Below, one piece after another: positions 9,730 through 33,200 of a DNA stretch of 64,000 bases; the stretch's first letter is position 1, and every line of letters begins with the position of its first letter. The position numbers and the translations under genes were made by a program. Origin of the DNA: Aureimonas sp. SK2 (GTDB taxonomy: Bacteria > Pseudomonadota > Alphaproteobacteria > Rhizobiales > Rhizobiaceae); the NCBI RefSeq assembly GCF_029813115.1, contig NZ_JAPZDS010000009.1:62001-126000 (forward strand), in the 5' to 3' direction. The notes beneath the pieces were generated by a model. It saw nothing but the letters and a program-made list of their open reading frames with translations, did not search any database and had not been told where the DNA came from.

Positions 9730-10716
9730 ATGAAGCTCTTCGCAACCACCGCCCTGGTGACCCTCGCTCTCGCCGCGCCCGCCGTGGCGCAGTGGGCTCC
9801 GACCAAGCCCGTCGAGTTCATCGCGGCGGGCGGCGCCGGCGGCGGCACCGACCAGTTCGCGCGCCAGATCCAGGCCGCGATCGCCAAGGAGAACCTGTCG
9901 CCCACCAACGTCGTGGTGTCGAACAAGGGCGGCGGCTCGGGCGCGGAAGCCTTCATCTACGGGGCCGGCTCGAAGGGCGACGAGCACAAGCTGATCTTCG
10001 GCACGTCCAACGAGTGGCAACTGCCGCTGGTGACGCGCCTCGGCTACAAGTCCGAGGACTTGATCCCGGTCGCCACCATGGCCGTCGACGAGTTCGTGGT
10101 GTGGGTGCAGGCCGACAGCCCCTACAACACGATCATGGATCTCGTGGAAGCGGGCAAGGCGAACCCCGGCAAGATCCGCTTCGGCGGTTCGCAGTCCAAG
10201 GACGTGGACCAGACGCTGGTGCGCCGCATCGAAGCCGCGACATCAGCCAAGTTCCTCTACATCCCCTTCAAGTCGGGCTCGGAAGCCGCCGTCCAGCTCG
10301 CCGGCAACCATATCGACGCCAACACCAACAACCCGGCCGAGAACGTCGGCCAATGGCGCGCGGGCCAGGCCAAGCCGCTCTGCGTGATGTCGGACGAGCG
10401 CATGGCCGACACGACCAAGGTCACCGAGACGCAGTCGTGGAACGACATCCCGACCTGCCGCGAGCAGGGGCTGCAGGTGGACGCCTACCAGATGCCGCGC
10501 ACCGTCTTCGCCCCGGCCGACGTGCCGGCCGAGGCGATCGCCTGGTACACCGACCTCCTGAAGAAGGTCTCCGAGACGCCTGAGTTCAAGGCCTATCTCG
10601 AGAACACCTCGCAGACCGCCCGCTTCATGACGGGCGAGGACTTCAAGTCCTACATCGCCGCCGACGTCGAGCGCTCTCGCCAGCAGTTCGAAGCCGACGG
10701 CTGGCTCGTCAACTAA
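9730..10716 (+). CDS. tctC: Tripartite tricarboxylate transporter substrate-binding protein
   Basis: A 328-residue periplasmic binding protein of the TctC/Bug family with a cleavable signal peptide (about residues 1-20, ending APAVAQ). The Bug hallmark near the ligand pocket is seen as AAGGAGGGTDQFARQ, and the C-terminal lobe contains the FAPADVPAEAIAWY segment. Such proteins bind carboxylated or related small molecules for the TctAB membrane pair. It lies 78 nt after the kinase gene and 79 nt before tctB, in one operon. The substrate is presumably the sugar acid or polyol degraded by the upstream enzymes; Bug proteins vary too much in ligand to name it. Confidence 0.88.
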   Translation: MKLFATTALVTLALAAPAVAQWAPTKPVEFIAAGGAGGGTDQFARQIQAAIAKENLSPTNVVVSNKGGGSGAEAFIYGAGSKGDEHKLIFGTSNEWQLPLVTRLGYKSEDLIPVATMAVDEFVVWVQADSPYNTIMDLVEAGKANPGKIRFGGSQSKDVDQTLVRRIEAATSAKFLYIPFKSGSEAAVQLAGNHIDANTNNPAENVGQWRAGQAKPLCVMSDERMADTTKVTETQSWNDIPTCREQGLQVDAYQMPRTVFAPADVPAEAIAWYTDLLKKVSETPEFKAYLENTSQTARFMTGEDFKSYIAADVERSRQQFEADGWLVN

Positions 10717-18696: not shown

Positions 18697-19692
18697 ATGG
18701 GCGGCCCACGGCCCGATGGAGTGTTCTTGCGCCCGCAGTTCGCCTTTCCTCCCGCCCTCCAGCGGTTGCACAACGTTCTGCCGCCGCTTGCGGGGCTCGC
18801 CATCCTGGCGCTGGTGGCTGCGGCCCTCGGAGGCGGAGACGTGGTGCGGCGGCTGGCGCAGGCCGATCCCCTTTTCGTCACACTGGCGGTTCTCGCTGTC
18901 CAGCCGCAGATCGTCCTGTCGGCGCTGCGCTGGCGCTTCATCTCGCAACGCCTCGGCCAGCCGCTTCCGATCGGCCGCGCGGTGGGGGAATACTACCTCG
19001 CCACCCTCCTCAACCAGGTACTGCCCGGCGGCGTCGCGGGAGATGCGGTGCGTGTGGTGCGTGCCGCCCGCGAGGGCGGGGACGGGCGCTGGACCGGCCG
19101 CGCCGGCCAGGCGGTGGTGCTCGATCGGCTGTCCGGTCAGATCGTGCTGTTCGCCGTCGCCGGTTTCGGCCTTCTCCTCGCGCCCGTCGTCTTCGGGGTC
19201 GCGCCTCCCGGCGGGCTCGGCCTGCTCGTCGTGCTGGGCCTCGCGGGAGGCCTCGGGCTCGCGGCCTACGGCATCCTGCGGTTCATGGGCGAGCGGGCGG
19301 CCCGGTTTCGGCGCGCCTTTCGACCGGTCATGGCCGAGACCTTCCTGCGTCGCGGCGCCTGGGGCGTGCAAGGTGCGACTTCGGCCGGCGTCGTCGGGTC
19401 CTATCTCGCGGTGTTCGCCCTGGCGGCCGCGGCCGTCGGCACACCGCTGGGGTTGGCGGCGACGGTGCTCCTCGTGCCGCTGGTGCTCCTGTCCATGCTG
19501 CTGCCCCTGTCGGTCGGCGGCTGGGGGCTGCGCGAAGCCGCCGCCGCCGCGATCCTGCCGATCGCGGGGCTGCGTCCGGACGCGGCCTTTGCCGCCAGCG
19601 TCGTCTACGGCATCGCCTCGCTGGCGGGCGCCCTGCCGGGCCTCGTCGTGCTCCTGCGCCATGCGCTGGCCGGTCGGCGGGCGGCCGCCTGA
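18697..19692 (+). CDS. LPG-synthase transmembrane/flippase-like membrane protein
   Basis: A polytopic inner-membrane protein of the lysylphosphatidylglycerol synthase TM (UPF0104/AglD) superfamily, about 331 residues with 7-8 membrane helices. Supporting motifs are LSALRWRFISQRLG, LLNQVLPGGVAGDAVRV and LLPLSVGGWGLREAA, all typical of the family. Relatives act in lipid or polyprenol-linked substrate flipping. The start is uncertain: ATG at 18697 is used here, but GTG at 18721 also fits and the frame is open to 18448. Its stop lies 8 nt from the end of the convergent methyltransferase gene, so it flanks the 19.7-28.2 kb biosynthetic cluster and may move a lipid-linked intermediate made there. 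Confidence 0.75.
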   Translation: MGGPRPDGVFLRPQFAFPPALQRLHNVLPPLAGLAILALVAAALGGGDVVRRLAQADPLFVTLAVLAVQPQIVLSALRWRFISQRLGQPLPIGRAVGEYYLATLLNQVLPGGVAGDAVRVVRAAREGGDGRWTGRAGQAVVLDRLSGQIVLFAVAGFGLLLAPVVFGVAPPGGLGLLVVLGLAGGLGLAAYGILRFMGERAARFRRAFRPVMAETFLRRGAWGVQGATSAGVVGSYLAVFALAAAAVGTPLGLAATVLLVPLVLLSMLLPLSVGGWGLREAAAAAILPIAGLRPDAAFAASVVYGIASLAGALPGLVVLLRHALAGRRAAA

Positions 19693-19700
19693 CGAGCCTC

Positions 19701-20486
19701 TCAGCCTGCCGGCGGCAGCGCGAGGACGTCCCAGTGGCCGACCTGGCAGGCCGTGGTCCCTGTCCGCCGCGCCTCGGCCCATTCGGCGAGCCGCGCAGCC
19801 TCGACCTGACCGGTCTCCTTCACCGCTCCGACGAACCCGCCGAGCAGCGCATCGTGAAGCGGCTTGTCGGCAGGACCCAGCCGCCAAGGGCTCGGAACCG
19901 TCCGGACGCTGTAGCCACGCGCTTCGAAAGCGATCCGCAGCGCCCGCGCGGCGCCGGGTCCCAGCGCAGGACCGAGCCCCTTGTCGCCGGTCTGATGCGC
20001 GTTGAAGGCGCCCAGCACGGCGACGTCGCCTTCCAGCGGCGGATCCCATTCCATCCGCCCGTCGTAGTTCAGGGCGGCGTAGAGCCCGATCCGCTCGACC
20101 GCCAGGATCTCGGCGACCCGCTCCACCAGGGCTTGCGAGGCGAGGTCGAACAGCGCGGAGGCCGTGATCAGCCGGGCGCCCGCCACGACGGCCGGCGAAA
20201 GATCGGCGAGGTCGGCCTCCATCCGCTCGACGTCGCCGAAGCCGCCGAGCCGGGAGACGGCGGCCTCCAGAAGGCGCGGGTCGTGGTCCACCAGCCGCCA
20301 GCGGATCGGCACGTCGGCTCCGAAGGCGCGCAGCGTCGAACCGGTGCCCGATCCGAGATCGACGGCGAGCGGCGTGCTGCCGGCCGAGCGAAGGTGAGCC
20401 CGCGCGGCGTCGAGCAGCGAACGGTCCCGCGCGGCATGGTCGGCGGGTTCGCGCAGATCGAGCCAGGTCGTGTCGAAGCCGCTCAT
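19701..20486 (-). CDS. Class I SAM-dependent methyltransferase
   Basis: A 261-residue cytosolic methyltransferase-like protein with the SAM-binding motif VDLGSGTGST at about 43-52, followed by LVDHDPRLLE (motif II) and LITASALFDLAS (motif IV region). The C-terminal half is less typical and could set the acceptor. It is the last gene of the minus arm, and its ATG overlaps the stop of the glycosyltransferase gene by 4 nt, so the two are translationally coupled. Its acceptor is unknown; in this cluster it could methylate a pteridine-type ring, a sugar or a phosphate-linked group. Confidence 0.75.
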   Translation of the reverse strand: MSGFDTTWLDLREPADHAARDRSLLDAARAHLRSAGSTPLAVDLGSGTGSTLRAFGADVPIRWRLVDHDPRLLEAAVSRLGGFGDVERMEADLADLSPAVVAGARLITASALFDLASQALVERVAEILAVERIGLYAALNYDGRMEWDPPLEGDVAVLGAFNAHQTGDKGLGPALGPGAARALRIAFEARGYSVRTVPSPWRLGPADKPLHDALLGGFVGAVKETGQVEAARLAEWAEARRTGTTACQVGHWDVLALPPAG

Positions 20487-21541
20487 CGTACCGCCTCCAG
20501 GGTTTCGGACAGGATGCGGGCCGAAGCCTCCCACGTCGGCAGCGCGTCCGCGGCTTCCAGCGCGCCGTCGGCCAGCGCCTGCCGTAGCGAGGCATCCTCC
20601 AGAAGCGCGCCCAGCGCGCCGGCAAAACCGTCGGCGTCGCCGGGGCCGACGAGAATGCCGGCGCTCGGCGGCACGACGTCCGCCACCGCGCCGCCGTCGC
20701 AGCCCACCACGGGCAGGCCATGGACCATCGCCTCCGCGAAGGCCATGCCGTAGCCCTCGAAGCGCGAGGGAAGCGCGAAGATGTCGGCGCCGCGATACTC
20801 GGCCCCGATATCGGGCACGGCGCCAGCGAGGGTTACGCGGCCTTCCAGCCCCGCGGCTTCGATGCGGGCCGCGAGCGCCCGGGCCGTGGCGGGATCGGCG
20901 GTCCGGCTGCCGACGATGCGGCAGCGCCATGGTACATCGGCAAGCCGTTCCAGCGCGTCCACGAGGAGGGCATGGTCCTTGCGCGGGATCAGCGCGCCGA
21001 CCGACAGGATCATCGGGATGCGGAAGCCCCCGCGTACGGGAGGAACGGCCGGACGCTCGGTGCCGGGCGGCGCGACGCTGATCGCCGTATCGACCCCGAA
21101 GCCGACCGCCAGCAGTCGCGCCGTGGCGGGGCTCGTCGCCACCACCGCGCGCGCATGCGACAGCGCCTCGCGCTCGCTATGGCGCAGGGCCTCGGCGACG
21201 GGCGGGGCGAGCCCGTCCTCCAACGCCAGCGGATGGTGGACCAGCGCCACGAGGCGCAGCCGCCTGCCTTCCCGCCGAGCGAGATCGGCCAGGGCGCCGA
21301 AGGCGAGCCCGTCCACCAGGGCCAGCGCCCCGTCCGGCAAGCCCGCAAAGGCTGCTGCAGCCTCGGCCAGATCCCCGGGGCCGGGCATCGGAAACGAGGC
21401 TGGCAGGGAGAGGAGTTGCACCCGCCAGCCGAGCGCGCCGAGCTCGGCGATCATGCGCCGATCGTAGCCGTAGCCGCCGCTGGGGCTCGCGAGATCGCCG
21501 GGGATGGCGAAGACGAGATCGCGCTCCGGCGCCGCGTTCAA
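20483..21541 (-). CDS. Glycosyltransferase family 4-like enzyme
   Basis: A 352-residue GT-B fold enzyme. The N-terminal acceptor half begins VFAIPGDLASPSGGYGYDRR; the donor half has LSVGALIPRKDH and the family motif SRFEGYGMAFAEAMVHGLPVV, where the two Glu residues spaced by seven bind the nucleotide sugar. It overlaps both neighbours by 4 nt (methyltransferase downstream, PTPS-like upstream), so the three proteins are made together. It most likely glycosylates the small molecule made by the cluster rather than a surface polysaccharide, given the absence of other polysaccharide genes. Confidence 0.8.
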   Translation of the reverse strand: MNAAPERDLVFAIPGDLASPSGGYGYDRRMIAELGALGWRVQLLSLPASFPMPGPGDLAEAAAAFAGLPDGALALVDGLAFGALADLARREGRRLRLVALVHHPLALEDGLAPPVAEALRHSEREALSHARAVVATSPATARLLAVGFGVDTAISVAPPGTERPAVPPVRGGFRIPMILSVGALIPRKDHALLVDALERLADVPWRCRIVGSRTADPATARALAARIEAAGLEGRVTLAGAVPDIGAEYRGADIFALPSRFEGYGMAFAEAMVHGLPVVGCDGGAVADVVPPSAGILVGPGDADGFAGALGALLEDASLRQALADGALEAADALPTWEASARILSETLEAVR

Positions 21542-21936
21542 AGCGCTCCCTCGTACCAGGCCCGCGCGACGTGGCTCTCGTGGAGCGTCACGCGGATGCG
21601 CCGGATGCGTGCGCCGCCGGCCCCGAAGGCACCCGCGCGGATGCGGCCGGCGAGCATGTCGAAGACGTGGCGCGCCAGGACCTCCGTGGTCGTGACCTTG
21701 CCTCGGAAGATCTCCAGCGCATCCAGATTCTGATAGTTCAGCGGCGCCAGGACCTCTTTCAGCGTCGCTATGGCGAGGCCCATGTCGACCCCGAGCCCGT
21801 CCTCGTCGACGTCGTCGCTGAAGAAGGCGGCGTCCACCTCGAAGGTCGCGCCGTGCAGGCCTTGCGCCGGGCCGAAGACCGGCCGTGGCAGCGAATGGGC
21901 GATCATGATGTGGTCACGGACTTCGACGGCGTACAT
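21538..21936 (-). CDS. Divergent 6-pyruvoyl-tetrahydropterin synthase/QueD-like protein
   Basis: A 132-residue T-fold protein related to PTPS/QueD. The first zinc His is H14 (MIAHSL) and the second H28 (LHGATF); the canonical HGHNY motif reads HGATF, so the third zinc ligand is replaced by Ala30. The C-terminal pterin-anchoring Glu is present in TLHESH. Homologs of this shape are normal-length, not truncated. PTPS-family enzymes convert dihydroneopterin triphosphate to pterin derivatives; the altered zinc site suggests a changed reaction. It is embedded in an operon with a dehydrogenase, a glycosyltransferase and a methyltransferase, and lies opposite GTP cyclohydrolase II. No clear ribosome-binding site precedes the ATG. 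Confidence 0.75.
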   Translation of the reverse strand: MYAVEVRDHIMIAHSLPRPVFGPAQGLHGATFEVDAAFFSDDVDEDGLGVDMGLAIATLKEVLAPLNYQNLDALEIFRGKVTTTEVLARHVFDMLAGRIRAGAFGAGGARIRRIRVTLHESHVARAWYEGAL

Positions 21937-21963
21937 GGAGGGGCTTTCCGAAGGAGGAGGACG

Positions 21964-22893
21964 TCAGTCCGCGTAGCGGATGCGGTGGCAGAGCGTGTCG
22001 GGATCGGACAGAATCGCGGCGTAGTCGCGGGCGAGGTCGCCGAAATCGCTTTGCCCGGAAAACAGGCGATCGAGAAGCGGGTCGGCGAGGAGGCGAAGTG
22101 CCGCATCGAGCCGGCGCGCATGGGTCCAGCGGGCCTGCCTGTCGGCCGGGATCCGGCCGACCTGCGAGGACACGATGGAGAGCCGGCGTGAATGAAAGGC
22201 GCCGCCCAGCGGTACGGCGACGGGCCTCGTGCCGAACCAGCTCGCCTCGACCACGCGCGCCTCGACGCCGGCGCAGGCCAGCGCCACGGCAAGGCCCTCC
22301 GGGTGGCCGGACGCGTGGACGACCATGTCGAGATCGCTTGGCGCCCGGTCCGGCGGAGCGAGTTCGCAGCCCCAGCCCTCGAGGCGCCGCAGCCGCGCGG
22401 CGTTCGGATCGAGAAGCGCAATCTCCGTGCCGGGAACGCGGGCGGCGAGATAGGCGACCAGAGAGCCGATCAGCCCGGCACCGACCACGCCGACGCGGTC
22501 CCCAGGGCCGATGCCGGCGTCCCAGACGATGTTGAGCGCCGTTTCCATGAAGGGTGCGAGCACCGCGCGCTCGGGGGGCACGCCGGCCGGAACGGGGCGC
22601 AAGGCGGCGGCCGGCGCCGCGAAGCGGTCTTGGTGCGGATGGAGGCAGAACACCGTTCGGCCGACCAAGGCGTCCGGCCCGCTCTCCACGGTGCCGACGG
22701 CGCTGTAGCCGTATTTCACCGGAAACGGGAAATCGCCTTCCTGGAGGGGCGCGCGCATCCGCGCGAACTCCTCCGGCGGCACGCGCCCTTCGAAGACCAG
22801 CCGTTCCGTGCCGCGGCTGATCGCACCGAAGAGGCTGCGCACGCGGCAGTCGAAGCTCGGATCGGCCAGGGCGACGCTTCGACGCATCTGCAC
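21964..22893 (-). CDS. Zinc-type medium-chain dehydrogenase-like protein, start unresolved
   Basis: A medium-chain dehydrogenase/reductase of at least 309 residues. The Rossmann motif GVVGAGLIGSLVAY is clear, and the N-terminal GroES-like part shows YGYSAVGTVESGP. The usual catalytic Cys/His zinc ligands are not obvious. GTG at 22893 is the first standard start, but the frame stays open and protein-like to a stop at 22969-22971, and residues ALWITDAGEVQ upstream fit the family N-terminus. The true start is therefore probably further upstream, either a rare ATC at 22956 with GAGGAG before it or lost by a frameshift. It is the first gene of the minus arm and is divergent from ribA. Confidence 0.72.
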   Translation of the reverse strand: MQMRRSVALADPSFDCRVRSLFGAISRGTERLVFEGRVPPEEFARMRAPLQEGDFPFPVKYGYSAVGTVESGPDALVGRTVFCLHPHQDRFAAPAAALRPVPAGVPPERAVLAPFMETALNIVWDAGIGPGDRVGVVGAGLIGSLVAYLAARVPGTEIALLDPNAARLRRLEGWGCELAPPDRAPSDLDMVVHASGHPEGLAVALACAGVEARVVEASWFGTRPVAVPLGGAFHSRRLSIVSSQVGRIPADRQARWTHARRLDAALRLLADPLLDRLFSGQSDFGDLARDYAAILSDPDTLCHRIRYAD

Positions 22894-23125
22894 CTCGCCG
22901 GCATCCGTGATCCAGAGCGCAAGCCCGGCATCCTCAATGGTTTGCTGGGTATCGATCTCTTCCGCTCCTCATTCGCGTCTGCCTCGACGAACGCGTGCTT
23001 CACGCGGATGTTCTGAGCGCAATCTGGATAAAGATCGGGCGTCGTCTAGCTGTCATGAACAGGCGCGCGGCTGATAGGACGACCATCATCGGCCCCTGTG
23101 CGAGAGTTCCGAGGAGTTGCGTGCG

Positions 23126-24247
23126 ATGGAAAAGGGCAGTTCCGACATCCTGTTCGGCGGCGACGATTTTGCGGACGCCGCGAAGGTGAACACCGAGCGG
23201 GCCGTTTCGGAGTTGCGATACGGGCGGCCGGTGCTGGTCGCCACGGGCGACGCCCGCTTCGCCGTCCTCGCCGTCGATGCGGCGGCGCCCGGCGATGTCG
23301 ATCGCTTCTTCGGCACCGAGCCGGGCGAGACCAGCCTCTTTCTCAGCGCGCACCGGGCACGCGCCCTTGGGCTCTCCACGATCGGTCCGGTCTGCCTCGC
23401 AACGGGGCGGCAATCCTTCGCCGATCTCTCGCGCCTCGCCTTCGCACCGGACCTTCGGACCGACGCCGCCTGGCGTCCGGCTTCCGAACTCGCCTGCCTC
23501 GCCGATCTCGCGCGTCTCGCGCTCCTCCTGCCGGCCTTCCTGGTGCGGCCGGCCCGCGTGGAGGACGCCTCGCTCGCCCGCTGTCTGTCTGTGGACGAGG
23601 TCGAAATCCGCGCGGCGCTCGCCGAGGAGAGCCGGTTCACCGAGGTCGCCCGGACGCCCGTTCCCCTGCGCGACATCTCCGACTGCCGCTTCGTCGTGTT
23701 TCGCGGCGGTCTCGCGCAGCGCGACCAGCTCGCCATCGTGGTCGGCGAGCCGGACACCTCGCACCCCGTGCCCGTGCGCATCCACTCGTCCTGCATCACC
23801 GGTGACCTCTTCGGCTCGCTGAAATGCGACTGCGGCGACCAGCTCCGCGAGGGGCTGCAGCTTATCGCCCAGCGCGGCGGCGGCGTGCTCCTTTATCTCG
23901 ATCAGGAAGGGCGGGGCACCGGCCTTGCCGCCAAGATGCGGGCCTATGCGCTGCAGCACGAGGGTTTCGACACGATCGACGCCGATGCGCAGATCGGCTT
24001 CGAGCCCGACGGGCGGCGCTACGGGGCGGCGGTGGCGATGCTGCGCGGGCTCGGCATCGGCTCCGTCGAGCTTCTGACCAACAACCCGACCAAGATCGCC
24101 GCGCTCCAGGCCGCGGGTATCGAGGTGCGCGCCCGCACCGCGGTGATCGGCACCGTGACCGCCGAGAACCAGGGCTATCTCGTCACCAAGGCGCGGCGCG
24201 CCGGCCACCTTCTCGACTGGCCGGCAATCGCGGCCAAGCTCGGCTGA
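23126..24247 (+). CDS. ribA: GTP cyclohydrolase II
   Basis: A 373-residue enzyme that opens GTP to 2,5-diamino-6-ribosylamino-4-pyrimidinone 5'-phosphate, formate and pyrophosphate. The zinc site is intact (SSCITGDLFGSLKCDCGDQ, three Cys), and catalytic YLDQEGRGTGLAAKMRAYALQ follows. The first 170 residues form an extra N-terminal domain without the DHBP synthase active-site pattern, as in other alphaproteobacterial RibA proteins. ATG at 23126 follows GAGGAG with good spacing. It heads the plus arm of the divergent cluster, away from typical riboflavin genes (no ribB, ribH or ribE nearby), so it probably supplies a dedicated precursor. Confidence 0.85.
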   Translation: MEKGSSDILFGGDDFADAAKVNTERAVSELRYGRPVLVATGDARFAVLAVDAAAPGDVDRFFGTEPGETSLFLSAHRARALGLSTIGPVCLATGRQSFADLSRLAFAPDLRTDAAWRPASELACLADLARLALLLPAFLVRPARVEDASLARCLSVDEVEIRAALAEESRFTEVARTPVPLRDISDCRFVVFRGGLAQRDQLAIVVGEPDTSHPVPVRIHSSCITGDLFGSLKCDCGDQLREGLQLIAQRGGGVLLYLDQEGRGTGLAAKMRAYALQHEGFDTIDADAQIGFEPDGRRYGAAVAMLRGLGIGSVELLTNNPTKIAALQAAGIEVRARTAVIGTVTAENQGYLVTKARRAGHLLDWPAIAAKLG

Positions 24248-24253
24248 TCCCCC

Positions 24254-25054
24254 ATGCGCTTCGACCCCATCCGCATGCCCCGGGGCGGGGCGCCGCATCT
24301 GTCCCTTCCCCGCCGGCCCATGGCCGCCGCGCTCCCCCACGCCTGCACGACGCTCGCCGCCACGGCGCTGACGATGACGGTGGCCGCGAGCGTCCTCGTC
24401 GCGCAGGCGGTCATGGCCTGGCCGCTCCTGCCGCTGTCGCTGGCGCTGTTCCTGCCGGTCGCCGGTTTCGTCGTGTGGCGCATCGACGACCACCCGCATG
24501 ACCGCTTCGGCCCGGCCAACATCGTGACAGCGGCGCGCGGCGGCATGGCGGCGCTGATCGGCGCCTCCGCCTGGGAATACGGAGCACTGACACCGGCCGA
24601 CAGTCACCTGCAATGGGCGCTGGCCGCGACCGTCCTCCTGGCGCTGTCGCTGGATGGGATCGACGGCTTTCTGGCGCGCCGCACCGGACTCGCCTCGCGC
24701 TTCGGCGAGCGCTTCGACATGGAGGTGGACGCCTATCTCATCCTGATGCTCTGCGCCCTGGCGTTCGCCAGCGGCAAAGCGGGCGTCTTCGTCTTCGCCA
24801 TCGGGTTGATGCGCTACGCCTTCGTCGCCGCCGCGGCCTTCGACCCGCGGCTTGCCCGCCCGCTTCCGCCGTCCCTCCGGCGCAAGACCGTCTGCGTTCT
24901 CCAGATCGCGCTTCTCTGCCTCGTCCTCCTGCCGCCGGTCGTGCCGCCGCTGTCGCAGGCGCTGGCGGCGCTGGCGCTGGCGGCGCTGGCGCTGGCGCTC
25001 CTCGCGTGGTCCTTCGCGGTGGATGTCCGAATTCTCGTGCGGGTACGGGCATGA
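24254..25054 (+). CDS. CDP-alcohol phosphatidyltransferase family membrane protein
   Basis: A 266-residue membrane enzyme with about six helices. The CDP-alcohol phosphotransferase motif (D-G-x2-x-R-x8-G-x3-D-x3-D type) is visible as DGIDGFLARRTGLASRFGERFDMEVD, shown here in pieces, with all catalytic Asp residues present. Family members transfer a CDP-activated phosphoalcohol to another alcohol. It starts 7 nt after ribA and overlaps the FkbM gene by 4 nt. In this cluster it may attach a phospholipid-type group or make an activated lipid alcohol, which fits the nearby sulfatase/LTA-synthase-like protein and flippase-like protein. The substrates are unknown. Confidence 0.8.
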   Translation: MRFDPIRMPRGGAPHLSLPRRPMAAALPHACTTLAATALTMTVAASVLVAQAVMAWPLLPLSLALFLPVAGFVVWRIDDHPHDRFGPANIVTAARGGMAALIGASAWEYGALTPADSHLQWALAATVLLALSLDGIDGFLARRTGLASRFGERFDMEVDAYLILMLCALAFASGKAGVFVFAIGLMRYAFVAAAAFDPRLARPLPPSLRRKTVCVLQIALLCLVLLPPVVPPLSQALAALALAALALALLAWSFAVDVRILVRVRA

Positions 25055-25830
25055 GCGGGTCGCTCCTGGAGCGCCTCGGCGTCGATCCGGCGACGCTCGG
25101 CCTCTGGCGGTCCATTCTCGTCTACAACGGGCAGCCCTGGCGGCGGCGAGCGCTGGAGCGCTTTTTCGGCACCCTGATCCGGCCGGGCGACCTCGCCTTC
25201 GATATCGGTGCCCATGTTGGGAGCCGCAGCCGGGCCATGGCGAGGGCGGGAGCGCGCGTCGTCGCCTTCGAGCCCCAGCCGCTGTTTGCCGACTATCTCG
25301 CGAAACGGCTCGATGCGCGCGCCGTCCGGCTCGACCGCCGGGCCGTCGGAAGCAACCCCGGCCGGGCGGAACTCGCCGTTTCGGCCCGCCATCCGACGGT
25401 CTCGACCCTGTCCAGCGAATGGCGGGACCGCGTCGCGAGCGATGAGGGCTTTCGCAACGTCGAGTGGGGCGGGCGGGCCGAGGTCGAGGTTTCGACGCTC
25501 GACCTCCTGATCGCCGAGCACGGCGAGCCCGCCTTCTGCAAGATCGACGTCGAGGGGCACGAGGCCGAGGTTCTCGCCGGACTGTCGCGCCCCTTGCGCT
25601 GCATCGCCTTCGAATACACGCCCGCGACGCTCGACCTCGCCTTCCGCTGCCTCGACAGGCTCGGCCAGCTCGGGTCCTATCGCTTCAACATCGTGATCGG
25701 CGAGGAGGCGGAGTTCCGGCTGCCGGAATGGCTGCCCGACACGGCATTCCGCGCGCGGCTGAGCGAGGAGGCGGCGCGCAATCGACGCTCGGGCGACGTC
25801 TACGCACGCCTGGCGGAGAGCGGCGCTTGA
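25051..25830 (+). CDS. FkbM-family methyltransferase
   Basis: A 259-residue SAM-dependent O-methyltransferase of the FkbM family. The motif DLAFDIGAHVGSRSRAMA at about 47-64 and VVAFEPQP define the SAM pocket, and FCKIDVEGHEAEVLAGL is the family signature. FkbM enzymes methylate hydroxyls on natural products or glycan residues. The gene overlaps its neighbours on both sides (ATGA upstream; the next start lies within its stop), so it is fully inside the operon. It is the second methyltransferase of the cluster. Confidence 0.83.
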   Translation: MSGSLLERLGVDPATLGLWRSILVYNGQPWRRRALERFFGTLIRPGDLAFDIGAHVGSRSRAMARAGARVVAFEPQPLFADYLAKRLDARAVRLDRRAVGSNPGRAELAVSARHPTVSTLSSEWRDRVASDEGFRNVEWGGRAEVEVSTLDLLIAEHGEPAFCKIDVEGHEAEVLAGLSRPLRCIAFEYTPATLDLAFRCLDRLGQLGSYRFNIVIGEEAEFRLPEWLPDTAFRARLSEEAARNRRSGDVYARLAESGA

Positions 25831-27458
25831 GCCAGCGGGCCGTTATGGCTCCGACCGGGCGCGCTTCCAGCCGCGGGTGGCCGGCGGCCCGCGTCGCGTT
25901 CGGGCTTCTCCTGCTTCTCGCCGCCCTCGCACTTCCCGACCGGCCGGCCGGCGTCGGAAGCGTCCGCTTTCCGGTGGAGTGGTTCTGGATCGCCGGTCTT
26001 CTGGCGCTGGCAAGGGGGCGCGTCTTCGCCCTTCTGACAGCGCTCCTGCTCGCGCTGGTGGCGGCGATCACCGTCCTGAGGCTCGCCGACTGGGGCACGC
26101 TGCTCGCCTTTTCCCGTCCGTTCGATCCCGTGGTGGATCGGTCGATCCTCGTCGCCGGATGGCATCTCCTGTCGGGTACGATCGGGGACGGGCGGGCGCT
26201 TCTGGCCATCGGCGCCGCGCTGGCAGCCTTCGCCGCCGGTGTCGCGCTTCTGTCCTACGGGCTCGCGGGACTTCGGCGGCTCGGCATCCGCGCGAGGAAA
26301 CAACTGGCCGGCGCGGCCCTTGCGGCGGGTCTGGCGGCCACGGGGCTCCTCCTTGTGACGCCCGCCGCCCTGCCGCTGTCGGCCGGGTTCTCGTCCTATG
26401 CCGGCGCGAAGTTCGCGGCGGCGCGTCGGTCCTATGCCGCGCAGGCCGAATTCGCGCGCGAGATGGCGGTCGATCCGCTTGAGGATGCGCGACCGGACGC
26501 TCTCCTGTCGGCCCTCCAGGGGCACGACGTCCTTCTTGTCTTCGTCGAATCCTACGGTCGAAGCGCTTTGGAGAATCCCCTGTTGGCGCCGCGCACGCTG
26601 TCGCGGCTGCAATCGGTCGAGACGGAGCTGGCGGCAGCCGGCGTTTCGGCGCGCAGCGGCTGGATGGGCTCGCCGATTGCCGGAGGGCAGAGCTGGCTCG
26701 CGCACGGCACGATCCTGTCGGGCCTCCTAGTCGACAATCAGATCCGCTACGAGAGCCTGATCGGGAGCGACCGCGAGAGCCTCAACGCCTTGTTCCGCGA
26801 GGCCGGCTGGCGGACGGTCGCCGTGATGCCGGCCATCACTATGCCCTGGCCGGAGGCGCGATGGTTCGGCTACGACGAGGTGCTGGCCGCGAAGGATCTC
26901 GGCTATCGCGGCCTGCCGTTCAACTGGGTGACGATGCCCGACCAGTTCACGCTCCACCGGATCGGCGAGATCCTCGATCGCTCCGCGCAGCCCGTCATGC
27001 TCCAGACGGCGCTGATCTCAAGCCACGCGCCCTGGACGCCGATCCCGCACATGGTGCCCTGGGAGACGGTCGGCGACGGCCGCGTGTTCGACGAACAGGC
27101 CCGGAGTGGCGAGGCCCCGGAGGTGCTCTGGAGGAACCACGACCGCGTGCGCGAGAACTACGGCCTGTCGATCGACTACGCGCTGGAAGCCGTCGGCTCC
27201 TTCGTCGCGCGCTTCGCGCGCAGCGCCGTGGTCGTGGTGGTGGGCGACCATCAGCCGGCCGAACTCGTGACCGGTCCCGGCGCCTCGCGCGACGTGCCCG
27301 TCCATGTCCTGTCGAACGACCCCGACATTCTTCGTCGGCTGGACGGCTGGGGGTGGACGGACGGCATGATTCCGGCCGCGAATGCGACGAGCGTTCCGAT
27401 GAGCGCCTTCCGCGAGCGCTTCGTGCGCGCCATGAGCGGTGCGGGAGGGGCGACATGA
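25827..27458 (+). CDS. Sulfatase/LTA-synthase-like membrane phosphotransferase
   Basis: A 543-residue protein with four or five N-terminal membrane helices and a C-terminal alkaline-phosphatase-superfamily domain outside the membrane. The metal-site Glu is in VFVESYGRS, the nucleophile region in GGQSWLAHGTILSGL, and the final metal His in VVVGDHQPAEL. The layout resembles phosphoglycerol or phosphoethanolamine transferases (OpgB, LtaS, EptA). The start is taken as TTG at 25827, overlapping the FkbM stop, because GGAGAG precedes it; ATG at 25845 is the alternative. A role in adding or removing a phospho-alcohol on the cluster product in the periplasm is plausible but inferred. Confidence 0.75.
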   Translation: MSQRAVMAPTGRASSRGWPAARVAFGLLLLLAALALPDRPAGVGSVRFPVEWFWIAGLLALARGRVFALLTALLLALVAAITVLRLADWGTLLAFSRPFDPVVDRSILVAGWHLLSGTIGDGRALLAIGAALAAFAAGVALLSYGLAGLRRLGIRARKQLAGAALAAGLAATGLLLVTPAALPLSAGFSSYAGAKFAAARRSYAAQAEFAREMAVDPLEDARPDALLSALQGHDVLLVFVESYGRSALENPLLAPRTLSRLQSVETELAAAGVSARSGWMGSPIAGGQSWLAHGTILSGLLVDNQIRYESLIGSDRESLNALFREAGWRTVAVMPAITMPWPEARWFGYDEVLAAKDLGYRGLPFNWVTMPDQFTLHRIGEILDRSAQPVMLQTALISSHAPWTPIPHMVPWETVGDGRVFDEQARSGEAPEVLWRNHDRVRENYGLSIDYALEAVGSFVARFARSAVVVVVGDHQPAELVTGPGASRDVPVHVLSNDPDILRRLDGWGWTDGMIPAANATSVPMSAFRERFVRAMSGAGGAT

Positions 27459-28213
27459 CTGCGCTTCCCGTATCCAAAACGGTTTGGGACGCTCTTCTGA
27501 GGATGCGCGGCGGCGTGGCGGAGGACGACTTCGCCGGCGATCCGGCCTGGGACCTCTACGCGCCGCTGGCCCGCCGCAGCGGCGGCTCCTTCGTCGTCGC
27601 GCAGGTCGGGCAGAGCCTCGACGGGCGCGTCGCGACGGTGGACGGCGACGCCGCGCCGATCTCCGGTCCGGACGGCTTTGCCCATCTCCACCGCCTGCGC
27701 GCCCTGTCCGATGCCGTCGTGGTCGGCGCCGGCTGCGTCGTCGCGGACGATCCCCGTCTCACCGTGCGCGAGGTCGCGGGACCCTCGCCGGTGCGGGTGA
27801 TCATCGATCCGAGCGGCCGCGTGCCGGCCGGGGCGCGCAGCCTCTCGGGCGAGGGGATCACCATTCTGGTGCGGGCGGAGGAGTGCGACGCGCCCGCGCC
27901 GTGCGAGACGATCTGCCTGCCGCGCGGTCCCGGCGGGCGCCTCTGCCCGCAGGCGCTGATCGCGGCGCTGGCCGACCGCGGCCTGCACCACCTCCTGATC
28001 GAGGGCGGGGCGGCGACGATCCGGCATTTCCTGGAAAGCGGCCAGGTGGACCGGCTCCATGTGACGATCGCGCCGATCATCATCGGCTCCGGCGCGCCCG
28101 GACTGTCGCTCCAGCCGATCTCGCATCTCTCGCAGGCCCTGCGCCCGCGCTGCCGAACGGTCGATCTCGGCAGCGACCTCCTGTTCGACTGCGCCTTCGA
28201 CCGGGGTCGATAG
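27455..28213 (+). CDS. RibD C-terminal-like reductase
   Basis: A 252-residue NADPH-dependent reductase of the RibD C-terminal (dihydrofolate-reductase-like) family, without the N-terminal deaminase domain. Motifs VVAQVGQSLDGRVAT, DAVVVGAGCVVADDPRLTVR and LLIEGGAATIRHFL are characteristic. RibD reductases convert the ribosylamino side chain of the RibA product to ribitylamino, so it can act directly on what ribA makes. It is the last gene of the plus arm and overlaps the sulfatase-like gene by 4 nt. Its stop lies 1 nt before the convergent pbpC stop. A stand-alone reductase next to RibA but without other riboflavin genes suggests a specialised pathway. Confidence 0.82.
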   Translation: MTALPVSKTVWDALLRMRGGVAEDDFAGDPAWDLYAPLARRSGGSFVVAQVGQSLDGRVATVDGDAAPISGPDGFAHLHRLRALSDAVVVGAGCVVADDPRLTVREVAGPSPVRVIIDPSGRVPAGARSLSGEGITILVRAEECDAPAPCETICLPRGPGGRLCPQALIAALADRGLHHLLIEGGAATIRHFLESGQVDRLHVTIAPIIIGSGAPGLSLQPISHLSQALRPRCRTVDLGSDLLFDCAFDRGR

Positions 28214-28214
28214 T

Positions 28215-30290
28215 CTACTCCACGAAGACGCGCGTCGTGGCGGCGCTGCCGGCGGAATCCACCACCGAGATGTCCAGGAAGCCCGGCTCGCTCGGCCGCC
28301 AGGCGGCCTGACGGTCGAACAAGCCGGTGAGGGCCGCGTGCCCGTCGACATACCAGGTGAAGGGCGGGCGACCGTTGCGCACCTTGAGGCTGAGCGCGGC
28401 CGGGGCGCTCTCGGCGAGGCCGAGCTCGATCCGGGCGGCATTCGGCGGAAACACGATCTCGGGCGCGTCGGCGCGCGTCGCCGTGCCCTTCGGCGACAGG
28501 TGGCGCATGGCGGGCGGGAGGCGCGCGGTATCGGCGAGGATGCCGGGCGGAGGACCGGACAGCCGAGCGGGCGGGCCGATCCGCGCGAAGACGTCGCGCA
28601 TCACGGGGACGGCCGCATCCTGGCCGACGAGGCCCGGCACCGGCGCGCCATCGGGCCGGCCCAGCCAGACGCCGACGACATGGCGCCCGTCGAAGGCCAG
28701 CGTCCAGGCGTCGCGATAGCCGAAGGAGGTGCCGGTCTTGTAGGCGATCGTGCCGGGCGGTCCCTTGGCCGTCGAGGGTGCGCCGGCGAGGATCGAGGCG
28801 AGGTACCACGCCGCCTGTTCCGACAGGATGCGCCTAACGGGTCCGGCTTCGAGGGCCGTTCCGGCGTCGATGCGCAGCGGCTTGGCGAGGCCGCCGTTGG
28901 CGATGCCAGCATAGACCCGCACGAGGTCTTCCAGGGAAATGCCGAGGCCCCCGAGCCCGATCGCGAGGCCCGGCAGGGTGCGGTTGCCGAGTTCGAGGCT
29001 GGCGCCGGTGCGCCGGATGCGGCTGACGAGGCGCGAGGGGCCGACGGCCACGAGGAGTTCCACGGCCGGCAGGTTGCGTGAGAGCTGGAGCGCCCGGCGG
29101 GCCGTGAGCGTGCCCTCGAACCGCCCGTCGAAATTGCCGGGCGTGTAGCCCGCAAAGGAGGTGGGCCGGTCCTCCATCAGCGATTCGGGATGGGCGATGC
29201 CGCGCTCGAAAGCGAGGCCGAAGATCAGCGGTTTCAACGTCGAGCCCGGCGAGCGCTGCGCCTTCGTGAGGTCGACATAACCTTGGCGCCCGGCATCGAA
29301 CACATCGGGCGAGCCGACCGAGGCCAGAATCTCGCCCGTCGCGTGATCGGCGACGACGAGCGCGAGGCTTTGCGGGCGGGGCAGGGTCGCCGCCTTCTCC
29401 CGCGCATAGGCCTCGAGCCGGGCCTGGAGCGCCGCGTCGATCGTCAGCCGCGCGCTGCCCAGGCCCTGGCGCTCGTGCAGCGTGCGCTCGCGCGCCTCGC
29501 TCGCGGCATGGGCGGCCAGCATGGGCATCGCGCGGCGGCGCGTCGGGACCGGCTCGCGCTTGGCGCGGGCCACGTCGGCCGCCGGCAGGATGCCGATCTC
29601 GGCCATCCGGTCGAGCACGCGGTCGCGCGCCGCCCGTGCCCGCTCGGGATGAAGGTCCGGACGCAGGCGCTCGGGCGATTGGGGCAGCGCGACGAGGAGC
29701 GCCGCTTCGCCGGCCGTCAGCCGCTTCGGCTCGTGGCCGAACCAGACGAGGCTCGCCGCGCGGATGCCCTCGACATTGCCGCCATAAGGCGCGAGCCGGA
29801 GATAGAGCGCCAGGATCTCGTCCTTGGACAGCGCGCGCTCCAGCGCCAGCGCCCCGAGGAACTGGCGGCCTTTGGCGAAAAAACTGCCCGTGGGCAGCCG
29901 CTCGTCGAGGCGCGCCACCTGCATGGTCAGCGTCGACCCGCCGCCGACGATCCGGCCGTGGTGCAGGGAATCGAGGGCGGAGCGCGCCAGCGTCAAGGCG
30001 TCGATGCCGCCATGCGTGCGGAAGCGCTTGTCCTCCCAGGCTTCCAGGATCGTGACGAAGCGGGGGTCGACATCCCCGACGCCGGCCGCCATGCGCCAGC
30101 GCCCGTCGGAGGCGGCGAAGGCGCGCAGCAGGGCGCCGTCGCGCGCCTCCACCACGAAGCCGGTCTCGGGCTCCCGGATCGCGGCCGCGCGCGAGGCGAC
30201 GGCGCGCTCCAACTGCCACCAGCCGGAGAGGGCGGCGGCCAGCAGGAGCGTCAGCCCGAGCCCTGCGCCGAGGATCCGCCGCCGTGCCAT
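28215..30290 (-). CDS. pbpC: Penicillin-binding protein 1C
   Basis: A 691-residue bifunctional peptidoglycan enzyme in the inner membrane. An N-terminal helix (about 7-25) precedes the glycosyltransferase domain with EDKRFRTHGG and GGSTLTMQVAR. The transpeptidase domain has the Ser of SPGSTLKP, then SRN and KTGTS motifs, all intact, and a C-terminal PBP1C (BiPBP_C) domain of about 90 residues follows. It starts 2 nt after the alpha-2-macroglobulin stop, the same pairing known for E. coli YfhM-PbpC, where the two are thought to cooperate in periplasmic defence and wall repair. Confidence 0.92.
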   Translation of the reverse strand: MARRRILGAGLGLTLLLAAALSGWWQLERAVASRAAAIREPETGFVVEARDGALLRAFAASDGRWRMAAGVGDVDPRFVTILEAWEDKRFRTHGGIDALTLARSALDSLHHGRIVGGGSTLTMQVARLDERLPTGSFFAKGRQFLGALALERALSKDEILALYLRLAPYGGNVEGIRAASLVWFGHEPKRLTAGEAALLVALPQSPERLRPDLHPERARAARDRVLDRMAEIGILPAADVARAKREPVPTRRRAMPMLAAHAASEARERTLHERQGLGSARLTIDAALQARLEAYAREKAATLPRPQSLALVVADHATGEILASVGSPDVFDAGRQGYVDLTKAQRSPGSTLKPLIFGLAFERGIAHPESLMEDRPTSFAGYTPGNFDGRFEGTLTARRALQLSRNLPAVELLVAVGPSRLVSRIRRTGASLELGNRTLPGLAIGLGGLGISLEDLVRVYAGIANGGLAKPLRIDAGTALEAGPVRRILSEQAAWYLASILAGAPSTAKGPPGTIAYKTGTSFGYRDAWTLAFDGRHVVGVWLGRPDGAPVPGLVGQDAAVPVMRDVFARIGPPARLSGPPPGILADTARLPPAMRHLSPKGTATRADAPEIVFPPNAARIELGLAESAPAALSLKVRNGRPPFTWYVDGHAALTGLFDRQAAWRPSEPGFLDISVVDSAGSAATTRVFVE

Positions 30291-30292
30291 CT

Positions 30293-33200
30293 TCAGCGGA
30301 GCGGGCCGACAACCGACACGTGCCCTTCCTCCGTGCGCCCGCGCCGCTCGGGCCGGTACATATCCTCGACGATGGCGGCGGGATGGACGAACTCGCCGGG
30401 CGACAGGGCGCGCACGATATAGGCGAAACGGTAGGGCTCGGTGGAGCCTTCGGCCTTATCGACAGCAGCCAGGAAGCGGTCGGCGCGTAACTCGGTATGC
30501 GCGGCCTCGCCGGTGAGTTCCAGGAAGTCGAGCGCCGCGACGTCGCCGCCCTTCAGGATCGACGGGTTGTCGATGGCAAGGCCCGCCGGCAGCGGGTCGT
30601 CGATCATCAGCCGCGCGGCCGCCTTGTCCACCGGCAGGACGTCGATCACCGCGACCAGCCGATCGCCTTGCGCGATGGCGGCGGGGTCGGCCTCCTCACC
30701 CTCCAGTGTGTAGTAGGCGCGGGTGATCTCGTAGCCTGAGGCCTCGGCCGGCGGCGCGACCAGCGGCACGCCCGCGACCGTCACGGCCGCCGAGACCGGC
30801 GCCTCGCCCCGGTTGCGGATCCGGATCGGGGTGGCGAGGCGGGCGGCGTCGAGCGTCTGCGAATAGCCGCCTTCGCGCGGCGCTCCATCCACGTCGAGCT
30901 CGGGCGGCTGGCTGGCCAGCGCCGCATGGGCGGCGAGCAGCGACCACACGTCTTCTTGCGTCGAGGTGTAGTGCTTGGCCGCCCGCTCCGTGCCGACCTT
31001 GGCGAGAAGCGGCTGAAGGTCGACGCCGCCGACGCCCGTTTCGAGCGCCAGGGTCGCGACCGCCGCGCCGTCGCGCAAGGGAGTGCCGTAGTCGTCGCGG
31101 GCCGGGACGTCGGTCCCGCTCGCGGCATGGGCCGCAGCAAGTCGCATCAGCGTTTCGGCGCGGGCCGCGTCGCCGTAGAAGGAGAGGGCGGAGGCAAGCT
31201 GCGCCTGCGCGAGCGGCGTCTTGAAGCCGCCCGCCTCGTTGTCGGCGGTGTAGCGCAGGTCGCCGATCGCCGCGCGGCCGTTGCGGGCGAGCACGTAATA
31301 GGCATAGGCCGCCTTCGACCAGTCCGGCTGGTCGGGCAGGTAGGCGATCTGGTTGGCGAGGTTGTCGAGCGCCAGGGTGAAGCTTTCCTGCGGCACGTCG
31401 TGGCCGGTCTCGCGGGCGCGGGTCAGGAAGTCCGTGACATAGGCGTCGAGCCAGAGGTCGCCGCCGCCGGGTGACCAGAGGCCGAAGCTGCCCGCCGAAT
31501 CCTGGTTGGCGAGGACGCCCCGGATCGCGGTCGCCACGCGCTCGGACACGTCGTCCGTGCCGGGAAGGCCGGCGGCAAGCACCGTCTGGTCGAGATAGAG
31601 GAGGGGGAGGGCGCGGCTCGTGAGCTGCTCCGTGCAGCCATAGGGATAGAGGTCGAGCGCCGCCACGACGCCGGCGACGTCGAAGCCACCGAAGCGGGTC
31701 ACCGACAGGGTGGCGCGCCCGGTGTCCGGCTGGAAATCGGCGACGACGTCGGAGCCGAGTTCCAGCGAGCCTCCGGCCACGATCTCGAAGCGACTCTTCT
31801 TCACCTCGCGCGGCTGGATGGAGCGGACGGGAAGCGAGAAGCTCTTGGTCAGCGTCTCGCCGTCGGGCGTCACGACGGCGAGTTCCATGGCGCCATCGCC
31901 CGGCGCGACGGCTTCCACCGGCACGAGGAGCCGGGCGCGGCCGCCCTCGGTCAGCTCGATGTCGGCCTCGGCATTGGCCTCGATCCGCAGTGCCTCGCCT
32001 CCGCCCGAGAGCGCGAGGTGGACCCGGCCCGCCGGCCCTTCCACATGGTTGAGGTCGATCTGGATACGCGAGCGGTCGCCGGGGCTGAGGAAGGTCGGCC
32101 GGCTGACCTGCGCCACCACGGGATCCCGCACCAGAACGTCCGCATCCGCCTCGCCGACGCCGGACTTCGACCAGGCGACGGCCATCAGCTTCAAGGTGCC
32201 GTTGAAGTCGGGAATTTCGAGCGGGACGGTGGCGCGCCCATCCGCATCCGCCGTCACGACCCCGGAGAAGAGGGCGACGAGGTCGTCCATCGGCGGCGGG
32301 CGCGAGCCGTCCGCCCCGGCGTCGCCGCCAGAGCGCACCGAGCCGGGCGCTCCCTGCATCCGGTCGATCAGGCGGGAATAGAGGTCGCGGATCTCGACGC
32401 CGAGGCGCCGCTGACCGAAATAGTGGTCCTGCGGCGAGGGCGGCGCGAACTCAGTGATGTTGAGGATGCCGACATCGACGGCGGCGAGCGTCAGGTAGGC
32501 CGTCTCGCCCGGCTGGACGTTGGCGAGCTGTACGTCGACGTTCAGAACGTCGCGCGGCGCGATGCGCTCCGGTGCCGACAGCGAGACCGAGAGCGCCCGC
32601 TCGCCCGGCTCGACGCCGGCATGGGCAAGGCCGAGAGCCCGTCCGGGCATGCGCTTCTCGGCGAGGTCCATCGGGCGGTAGAAAATGGCGGCGACATAGG
32701 CGCTCGGCCCCCAGTCGCGCGTCACCGGAAGGCTCACGTCCACGCCCTCGGCCGGGATGTCGGCCGAGACGCTGGCGACCACGCGCTCGCCCATGACCAG
32801 CACTTGCGCCTTGCCGGCGAAGCGCGGCTCGATGTGGACCGTGGCCGTGTCGCCGACGCGGTAGCGTGGCTTGTCGAGCGAGAGCTTGAGGACGTCGGGC
32901 GTTTCCATCGAGCTCGGGGCGACGTACCAGCCGGCCTCGAAGGCGACGCTCGTGGGCAGGGCGTCCGGCGCGGGGTCGTTCAGCACGAGTTCGTAGCTGC
33001 CCCAGGCGACGGGGACGGTGAGGCGCGCCGGCGCGTCGGCGGGCACGGCGAGCGTGCCGCTGCCCACGCGCTCCTTGCGCTGCGTGGTCTCGTAGTTCCA
33101 GCGGCCGTTGACGGAATACCACTGGAAGTCGGTCGTCACCTTGTTCAACACCCATCCGATGCTCTCGCGCCCGATCCGCGCGCCGTCGGGACCGAGCGCG

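Follow-up and report, generated by a model that had tools for sequence, protein, structure and literature searches.

In a 64,000-nucleotide stretch of DNA from Aureimonas sp. SK2 (contig NZ_JAPZDS010000009.1, positions 62,001 to 126,000; hereafter the window), ten genes at positions 18697-28213 form a cluster whose conservation as a unit we regard as virtually certain. All ten are open frames and lie in two divergent arms meeting at about 23.0 kb. The minus arm encodes a BchC-like dehydrogenase (DH), a protein resembling 6-pyruvoyltetrahydropterin synthase (PTPS), a GT4 glycosyltransferase and a methyltransferase (MT); the plus arm encodes GTP cyclohydrolase II (RibA), a CDP-alcohol phosphotransferase (CDP), an FkbM-family methyltransferase (FkbM), a membrane protein of the alkaline phosphatase superfamily (SULF) and a stand-alone pyrimidine reductase (RibD_C). 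The gene for a flippase-like membrane protein (FLP), on the plus strand, adjoins MT. Families were assigned with Pfam and NCBIfam, and these assignments, with a check of the frames, bore out the families and layout given in an initial annotation of the window, the Pfam match of MT being weak and its class I methyltransferase fold coming from a predicted model (predicted local distance difference test score, pLDDT, of 94.9). We propose that this is a dedicated cluster, found in many Proteobacteria and some Actinobacteria, which would make a GTP-derived glycoconjugate by the route set out below, a proposal that as a whole falls just short of an even balance. The interpretation offered by the initial annotation is thus partly supported.

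The case for a conserved unit rests on the company that the PTPS-like gene keeps, conserved co-occurrence having been the point that the initial annotation singled out for checking. When one genome per species was scanned, at least 592 pattern matches came up, at least 583 of them encoding a PTPS-like relative, of which the best 80 were retained; every count out of 80 refers to these best 80 of at least 583 loci and to neighbours within about 10 kb of the PTPS-like gene. Beside PTPS itself (80), DH was found in 78, MT in 77, GT4 in 69 and RibD_C in 56, followed by CDP (45), SULF (41), RibA (36), FLP (35) and FkbM (33). DH, PTPS, GT4 and MT were all present in 64 of the 80 loci and stood in that order on a single strand in 51. 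Contig ends cut 20 loci to less than 20.3 kb; the 60 full-length loci held DH and MT in every case, GT4 in 50, RibD_C in 42, CDP in 37, SULF in 34 and RibA in 28.

Samples taken at other distances gave the same picture. The PTPS-like protein was found in 20 of 61 relatives, representing 8 of 41 genera. When the window proteins were mapped onto 19 regions around the relatives' PTPS hits (the window excluded, several regions being also among the 80), DH, PTPS and MT were found together in 18, the exception (L041) stopping at a contig edge, and the remaining cluster genes were rearranged nearby. A phylum-wide sample of 150 genomes yielded 16 PTPS matches, of which 11 were strong (the window's among them), and DH, PTPS, GT4 and MT stood together in all nine neighbourhoods examined out of the ten strong non-window matches; one of the nine (L148) is apparently from the same genome as L121, a Methylopila. 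Much the same genes are found again in Streptomyces, Microbacterium, Thiodictyon and Xanthomonas. Twenty plasmid records carried a PTPS gene, of which 11 were examined (H16 being among those left out). The plasmids of Streptomyces fungicidicus and S. globisporus both hold CDP, DH, PTPS, GT4, MT, FLP, a creatininase-family gene and RibA, the latter plasmid adding RibD_C, and a Microbacterium plasmid holds CDP, DH, PTPS, GT4, MT, FLP and RibD_C; no match to SULF or FkbM was found in these three clusters. The gammaproteobacterium Thiodictyon has DH, PTPS, GT4, MT, a cytochrome b561, RibD_C, CDP and a SULF match, and an Arthrobacter plasmid has matches to DH, PTPS and GT4 only. The claim that the glycosyltransferase, the methyltransferase and membrane parts belong together thus held across phyla. 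Nothing here bore out the refuting case named in the initial annotation, in which relatives would fail to keep the genes together. In Xanthomonas sp. AmX2 (L059) the cluster PTPS is 71% identical to the window protein, and this closeness to an alphaproteobacterial protein suggests horizontal transfer.

Across the 61 relatives, PTPS and CDP (E<1e-20) occurred together in 14, PTPS only in 6, CDP only in 2 and neither in 39 (Fisher p 1.6e-7), while PTPS and RibD_C (>150 bits) occurred together in 12, PTPS only in 8, RibD_C only in none and neither in 41 (Fisher p 7e-8); the CDP and RibD_C thresholds were chosen after the lists were seen and 21 of the 61 genomes come from one genus, so that these p-values overstate the case. 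All 12 cluster-type RibD_C matches above 150 bits fell in PTPS-positive genomes, 11 of them no more than about 6 kb from the PTPS gene, and in the twelfth genome (G002) the contig stops inside the cluster and a PTPS fragment ends another contig. Three relatives (G005, G011 and G013) have a split arrangement, in which the PTPS locus lacks GT4 and a second site holds b561, CDP, SULF and GT4. Clustering of open reading frames over 94 loci further recovered a b561 cytochrome gene in 45, an MdoH-like GT2 in 22 and an inositol-phosphatase-family group in up to 19, none of which had a relative in the window; generic ABC, LysR and SDR groups and wrong-frame groups were set aside.

The motifs of RibA are consistent with a GTP-opening enzyme. 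Its zinc cysteines (C-x10-C-x-C) are kept in 47 of 47 sequences, and the window RibA carries them together with Tyr277 (numbered from 23117) at the position that we take to be the product switch of SCO6655. Tyr at the switch position of GTP cyclohydrolase II gives the deformylated product. This residue was found in 42 of 44 RibAs, the two others, both from the Streptomyces clusters, having Met; four further RibAs (L143, L147, L149 and L150) also have Tyr. SCO6655, with Met at this position, reportedly makes a formamidopyrimidine (FAPy), according to work ascribed to Spoonamore and Bandarian in 2006; its likeness is thus to the Met-type RibA of the two Streptomyces plasmid clusters, the proteobacterial RibAs examined having Tyr. 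In each of the two Met-type loci a creatininase-family gene adjoins ribA and is likely to encode a FAPy deformylase. The loci with such a gene next to RibA are L122, L134 and L143. No match to the creatininase family was found by Pfam among the ten window genes. BrbF of Sinorhizobium and Brucella, the FAPy formamidase in Sinorhizobium, is likewise a creatininase-family enzyme acting on the product of GTP opening and differs in serving riboflavin, as described in PMC9478397. RibA passes the NCBIfam model NF006456/PRK08815 narrowly (467.1 bits, cut-off 464). Its N-terminal region of about 170 residues (23117-23640) is of the type seen in PRK08815 and, to judge from its sequence, may be a degenerate RibB domain.

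The PTPS-like protein is, by full-length homology, a member of the SCO6650 family, its profile matching SCO6650 of Streptomyces coelicolor (PDB 3d7j) over profile positions 1-130 with E=4e-52, and PTPS/QueD enzymes at 9e-6 or weaker. The PTPS-like assignment made in the initial annotation was refined to this family, which is without the residues of active PTPS/QueD. In the alignment A24 falls at the Cys of 2g64, HGA at the HGH of 3i2b and 2g64, and Asn-Tyr at the Asp-His pair of 3i2b, positions that we take to be catalytic in the PTPS/QueD enzymes. The motif A-x3-HGA was present in 101 of 101 sequences and HGH in none of them. Since Ala replaces both the catalytic Cys and the third zinc His, the protein is not a normal QueD or PTPS; on account of the missing residues the queuosine pathway was rejected, and they argue against the name 6-carboxytetrahydropterin synthase (queuosine synthesis) that public records give this marker. 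SCO6650 itself reportedly contains no zinc and shows no PTPS activity, and reportedly keeps a pterin-like pocket. The window protein shares the T-fold family PF01242 with QueD and PTPS-I, II and III (COG0720), and differs in having AxxxHGA in place of their CxxxHGH, CxxxxxHGH or ExxHGH (motifs from PMC5041015, which describes the function of PTPS-V as unclear). Its gene is the only PTPS-family match in its own genome. Three stand-alone SCO6650-family genes on Streptomyces plasmids (L123, L127 and L130, at about 10001-10400) lie near cupin, BTAD regulator and sigma-factor genes.

The absence of riboflavin genes from the cluster, as first described, was also found here. No match to the RibH, RibE or RibB families was found among the ten genes (for RibE and RibB the search covered these ten genes, not the remainder of the genome), and RibH together with a RibD-type frame of 399 residues, about 1 kb apart, lies elsewhere in the genome (C8), with a second GTP cyclohydrolase II domain on C12. 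A riboflavin operon was accordingly rejected. Since these genes lie elsewhere, the cluster is probably not needed for riboflavin, and the view that it is dedicated and separate from riboflavin synthesis was borne out to that extent. A second riboflavin or flavin-secretion pathway, in which RibA and RibD_C, both early riboflavin enzymes, duplicate the first steps for export, as has been proposed for Sinorhizobium RibBA apart from internal riboflavin (PMC9478397), is very improbable, given that RibH, RibE and RibB are unmatched among the ten genes, that RibH and a RibD-type gene lie elsewhere, and that such a pathway would not account for the presence of PTPS, GT4, MT and DH alongside.

The membrane parts were characterized by motif and fold. 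The CDP motif D-x2-DG-x2-AR-x8/9-G-x3-D-x3-D is complete in 54 of 55 sequences and absent from L059; no close solved relative of CDP was found. In SULF, N-terminal helices precede a domain of the alkaline phosphatase superfamily. A sequence search found no solved relative for it, and it was placed by fold comparison, its model (pLDDT 87.0) giving LtaP, MCR-1, LtaS and GacH as best Foldseek matches. Its fold is thus like that of LtaS/LtaP, GacH and phosphoethanolamine transferases, at only 10-15% identity and a template modelling (TM) score below about 0.6. Searches with MT returned generic methyltransferases with no hint of substrate.

Taken together, the gene set, the families, the catalytic motifs and the position of the riboflavin genes elsewhere in the genome suggest the following route. 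Judging from their families, RibA would open GTP to 2,5-diamino-6-ribosylamino-4(3H)-pyrimidinone 5'-phosphate (DARPP), and the stand-alone RibD_C, which has no deaminase domain, would reduce this to its ribitylamino counterpart, a step that probably comes ahead of any deamination; the pairing of a GTP-opening enzyme with a deaminase-less reductase that had been described was supported. Because this reduction would precede deamination, the 2-amino group would be kept. The PTPS-like scaffold may then bind the diaminopyrimidine or a derived pterin, and with the BchC-like DH may build or oxidise a pterin-like ring system, whose product MT would methylate and GT4 glycosylate. CDP would probably link the product, via a polyol or sugar, to a phospholipid, FLP would move it outward, and the LtaS/EptA-like SULF and FkbM would decorate it. 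For the ring chemistry, lipid linkage and export the company of the genes is the only guide. We consider it likely that the product derives from GTP and, at slightly lower confidence, probable that it is glycosylated and methylated; whether it has the ribityl form could go either way, and its lipid linkage is somewhat more doubtful than that.

Several observations weigh against this route. RibA lies near PTPS in 36 of 80 loci and CDP in 45 (28 and 37 of the 60 full-length loci), and with RibD_C in 56 of the 80 neither RibA nor RibD_C is shown to be obligatory. A cluster-type RibD_C is missing from 8 of the 20 PTPS-positive relatives, the Streptomyces plasmid loci L123, L127 and L130 carry a PTPS gene without the cluster, and two genomes, G014 and G057 (L139 and L140), hold CDP-SULF-GT4-b561 and no PTPS match, the CDP match of G014 containing an in-frame TGA. 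The creatininase gene of L143 adjoins a Tyr-type RibA, which weakens a strict pairing of such genes with the Met type, and those of L036 and L100 do not adjoin any RibA. As to a likeness of RibD_C to the archaeal type of DARPP reductase, which acts before deamination, the RibD_C profile scored highest among solved structures against 6p8c (145.6 bits) and 2azn (133.6 bits), above the best RibD (112.4 bits). However, 4ha7, 9l1f and 9l1h, named as DARPP reductases, scored 69-71 bits, below RibD, and the NCBIfam models for the RibD C-terminal domain (130.3 bits), bacterial RibD (105.9 bits) and the archaeal reductase (103.8 bits) were all under cut-off. The archaeal likeness suggested by sequence is therefore not clear-cut, being favoured by the solved-structure profile and not by the NCBIfam models.

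Alternatively, the product may be a soluble glycosylated and methylated pterin or pyrimidine, which the cell would secrete or else retain as a cofactor or pigment, with CDP, SULF, FkbM and FLP forming a co-travelling envelope pathway. CDP is missing from 35 of the 80 loci and SULF from 39, with DH, PTPS and MT kept in 30 and 34 of these (contig ends cutting 20 of the 80), and the module CDP-SULF-GT4-b561 is found at a separate site in some genomes and without PTPS in others. In contrast, CDP and FLP are present in both Streptomyces clusters and in that of Microbacterium, and CDP and PTPS co-occur over the 61 relatives, at separate places in three; we consider a soluble product unlikely, while giving it serious weight. 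A narrower form of the lipid-linked proposal is a glycosylated redox cofactor of pterin- or flavin-like type, anchored in the membrane: a phospholipid-bound ribityl-pteridine that would be flipped to the periplasmic face and take part there in electron transfer with b561. It draws on the company of b561 in 45 of 94 loci, in Thiodictyon and, where the cluster is split, at the second site, and we hold it to be improbable. A shade less probable still is that the cluster makes an envelope glycan or glycolipid, with PTPS, RibA and RibD_C having substrates not related to pterins. GT4, FkbM, the LtaS/EptA-like enzyme, the flippase-like protein and the MdoH-like GT2 of 22 of the 94 loci would suit such a role; the zinc cysteines of RibA (47/47), the Tyr or Met at its switch position (44/44) and the creatininase gene beside RibA in both Streptomyces clusters do not.

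The GTP-derived glycoconjugate proposed here would resemble in its first steps a known trunk. The archaeal early riboflavin/F420 trunk is ArfA-ArfB-ArfC, with which the cluster shares GTP opening, a deaminase-free reductase and, in its Streptomyces form, a creatininase-family protein; it differs in having GTP cyclohydrolase II for ArfA, and GT4, MT and CDP in place of the later riboflavin/F420 enzymes, which are not among the ten genes. We recognised no paper describing this gene set in open-licence PubMed Central; the entry for PMC2853524 mentions SCO6655 once. With at least 583 candidate places encoding a PTPS-like relative, the pathway may be a widespread one without a known product, possibly a new pterin-like lipid or cofactor. 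SCO6650 and SCO6655 have reportedly been studied singly, and an identified product would give these proteins a role.

The features of the locus are listed in the table. Four-nucleotide overlaps join GT4 to MT, CDP to FkbM and, if GT4 starts at TTG, PTPS to GT4, and RibD_C starts 4 nt inside SULF (27455). The overlaps make the translational coupling described earlier plausible at these four junctions. The start of DH is uncertain, since none of the codons ATG, GTG and TTG occurs in its frame ahead of the conserved N-terminus (region 22893-22970). In the relatives L023 and L025 DH may likewise be without a canonical start.

Table. Features of the cluster and its divergent promoter region (window coordinates)
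Feature	Coordinates	Strand	Evidence
FLP, flippase-like membrane protein (LPG_synthase_TM)	18697..19692	+	PF03706 E=3e-37; TIGR00374 43.5 bits, cut-off 43.2
MT, class I S-adenosylmethionine (SAM) methyltransferase	19701..20486	-	Methyltransf_25 22.2 bits, below cut-off 27; predicted fold
GT4 glycosyltransferase (TTG start)	20483..21541	-	PF13692 E=9e-30
PTPS-like T-fold protein, SCO6650 family	21538..21936	-	PF01242 E=1e-19; 3d7j E=4e-52
DH, BchC-like medium-chain dehydrogenase, start codon uncertain	21964..22968	-	NCBIfam bchC 53.9 bits, far under cut-off 291
Conserved element, divergent promoter region	23041..23055	+	alignment of 6 intergenic regions
RibA, GTP cyclohydrolase II (alternative start TTG 23117)	23126..24247	+	PF00925 E=1e-53; NF006456
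CDP, CDP-alcohol phosphotransferase	24254..25054	+	PF01066 E=6e-14
FkbM-family methyltransferase	25051..25830	+	PF05050 E=5e-16; TIGR01444
SULF, alkaline phosphatase superfamily membrane protein, LtaS/EptA-like	25845..27458	+	PF00884 E=5e-10; predicted fold
RibD_C, stand-alone pyrimidine reductase without deaminase domain	27455..28213	+	PF01872 E=6e-38

A simple scan found no sigma-70 promoter in the divergent gap, and Rfam at gathering threshold gave only three tRNAs in the window and no riboswitch. Six aligned DH-RibA intergenic regions have in common a nearly fixed stretch (window 23020-23056), whose 15-bp core, with one position free, was found in eight genomes of the same genus; it is lacking in G001, which seems to have the divergent layout across a contig break. 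The window's own genome holds one exact copy of the core and one copy with a mismatch. A shared operator or an unusual promoter is a possible role for this conserved non-coding element. Beyond RibD_C, the adjoining frames at 28215-35779 presumably encode a penicillin-binding protein 1C-like protein and a large alpha-2-macroglobulin-like protein, which we do not count as members of the cluster.

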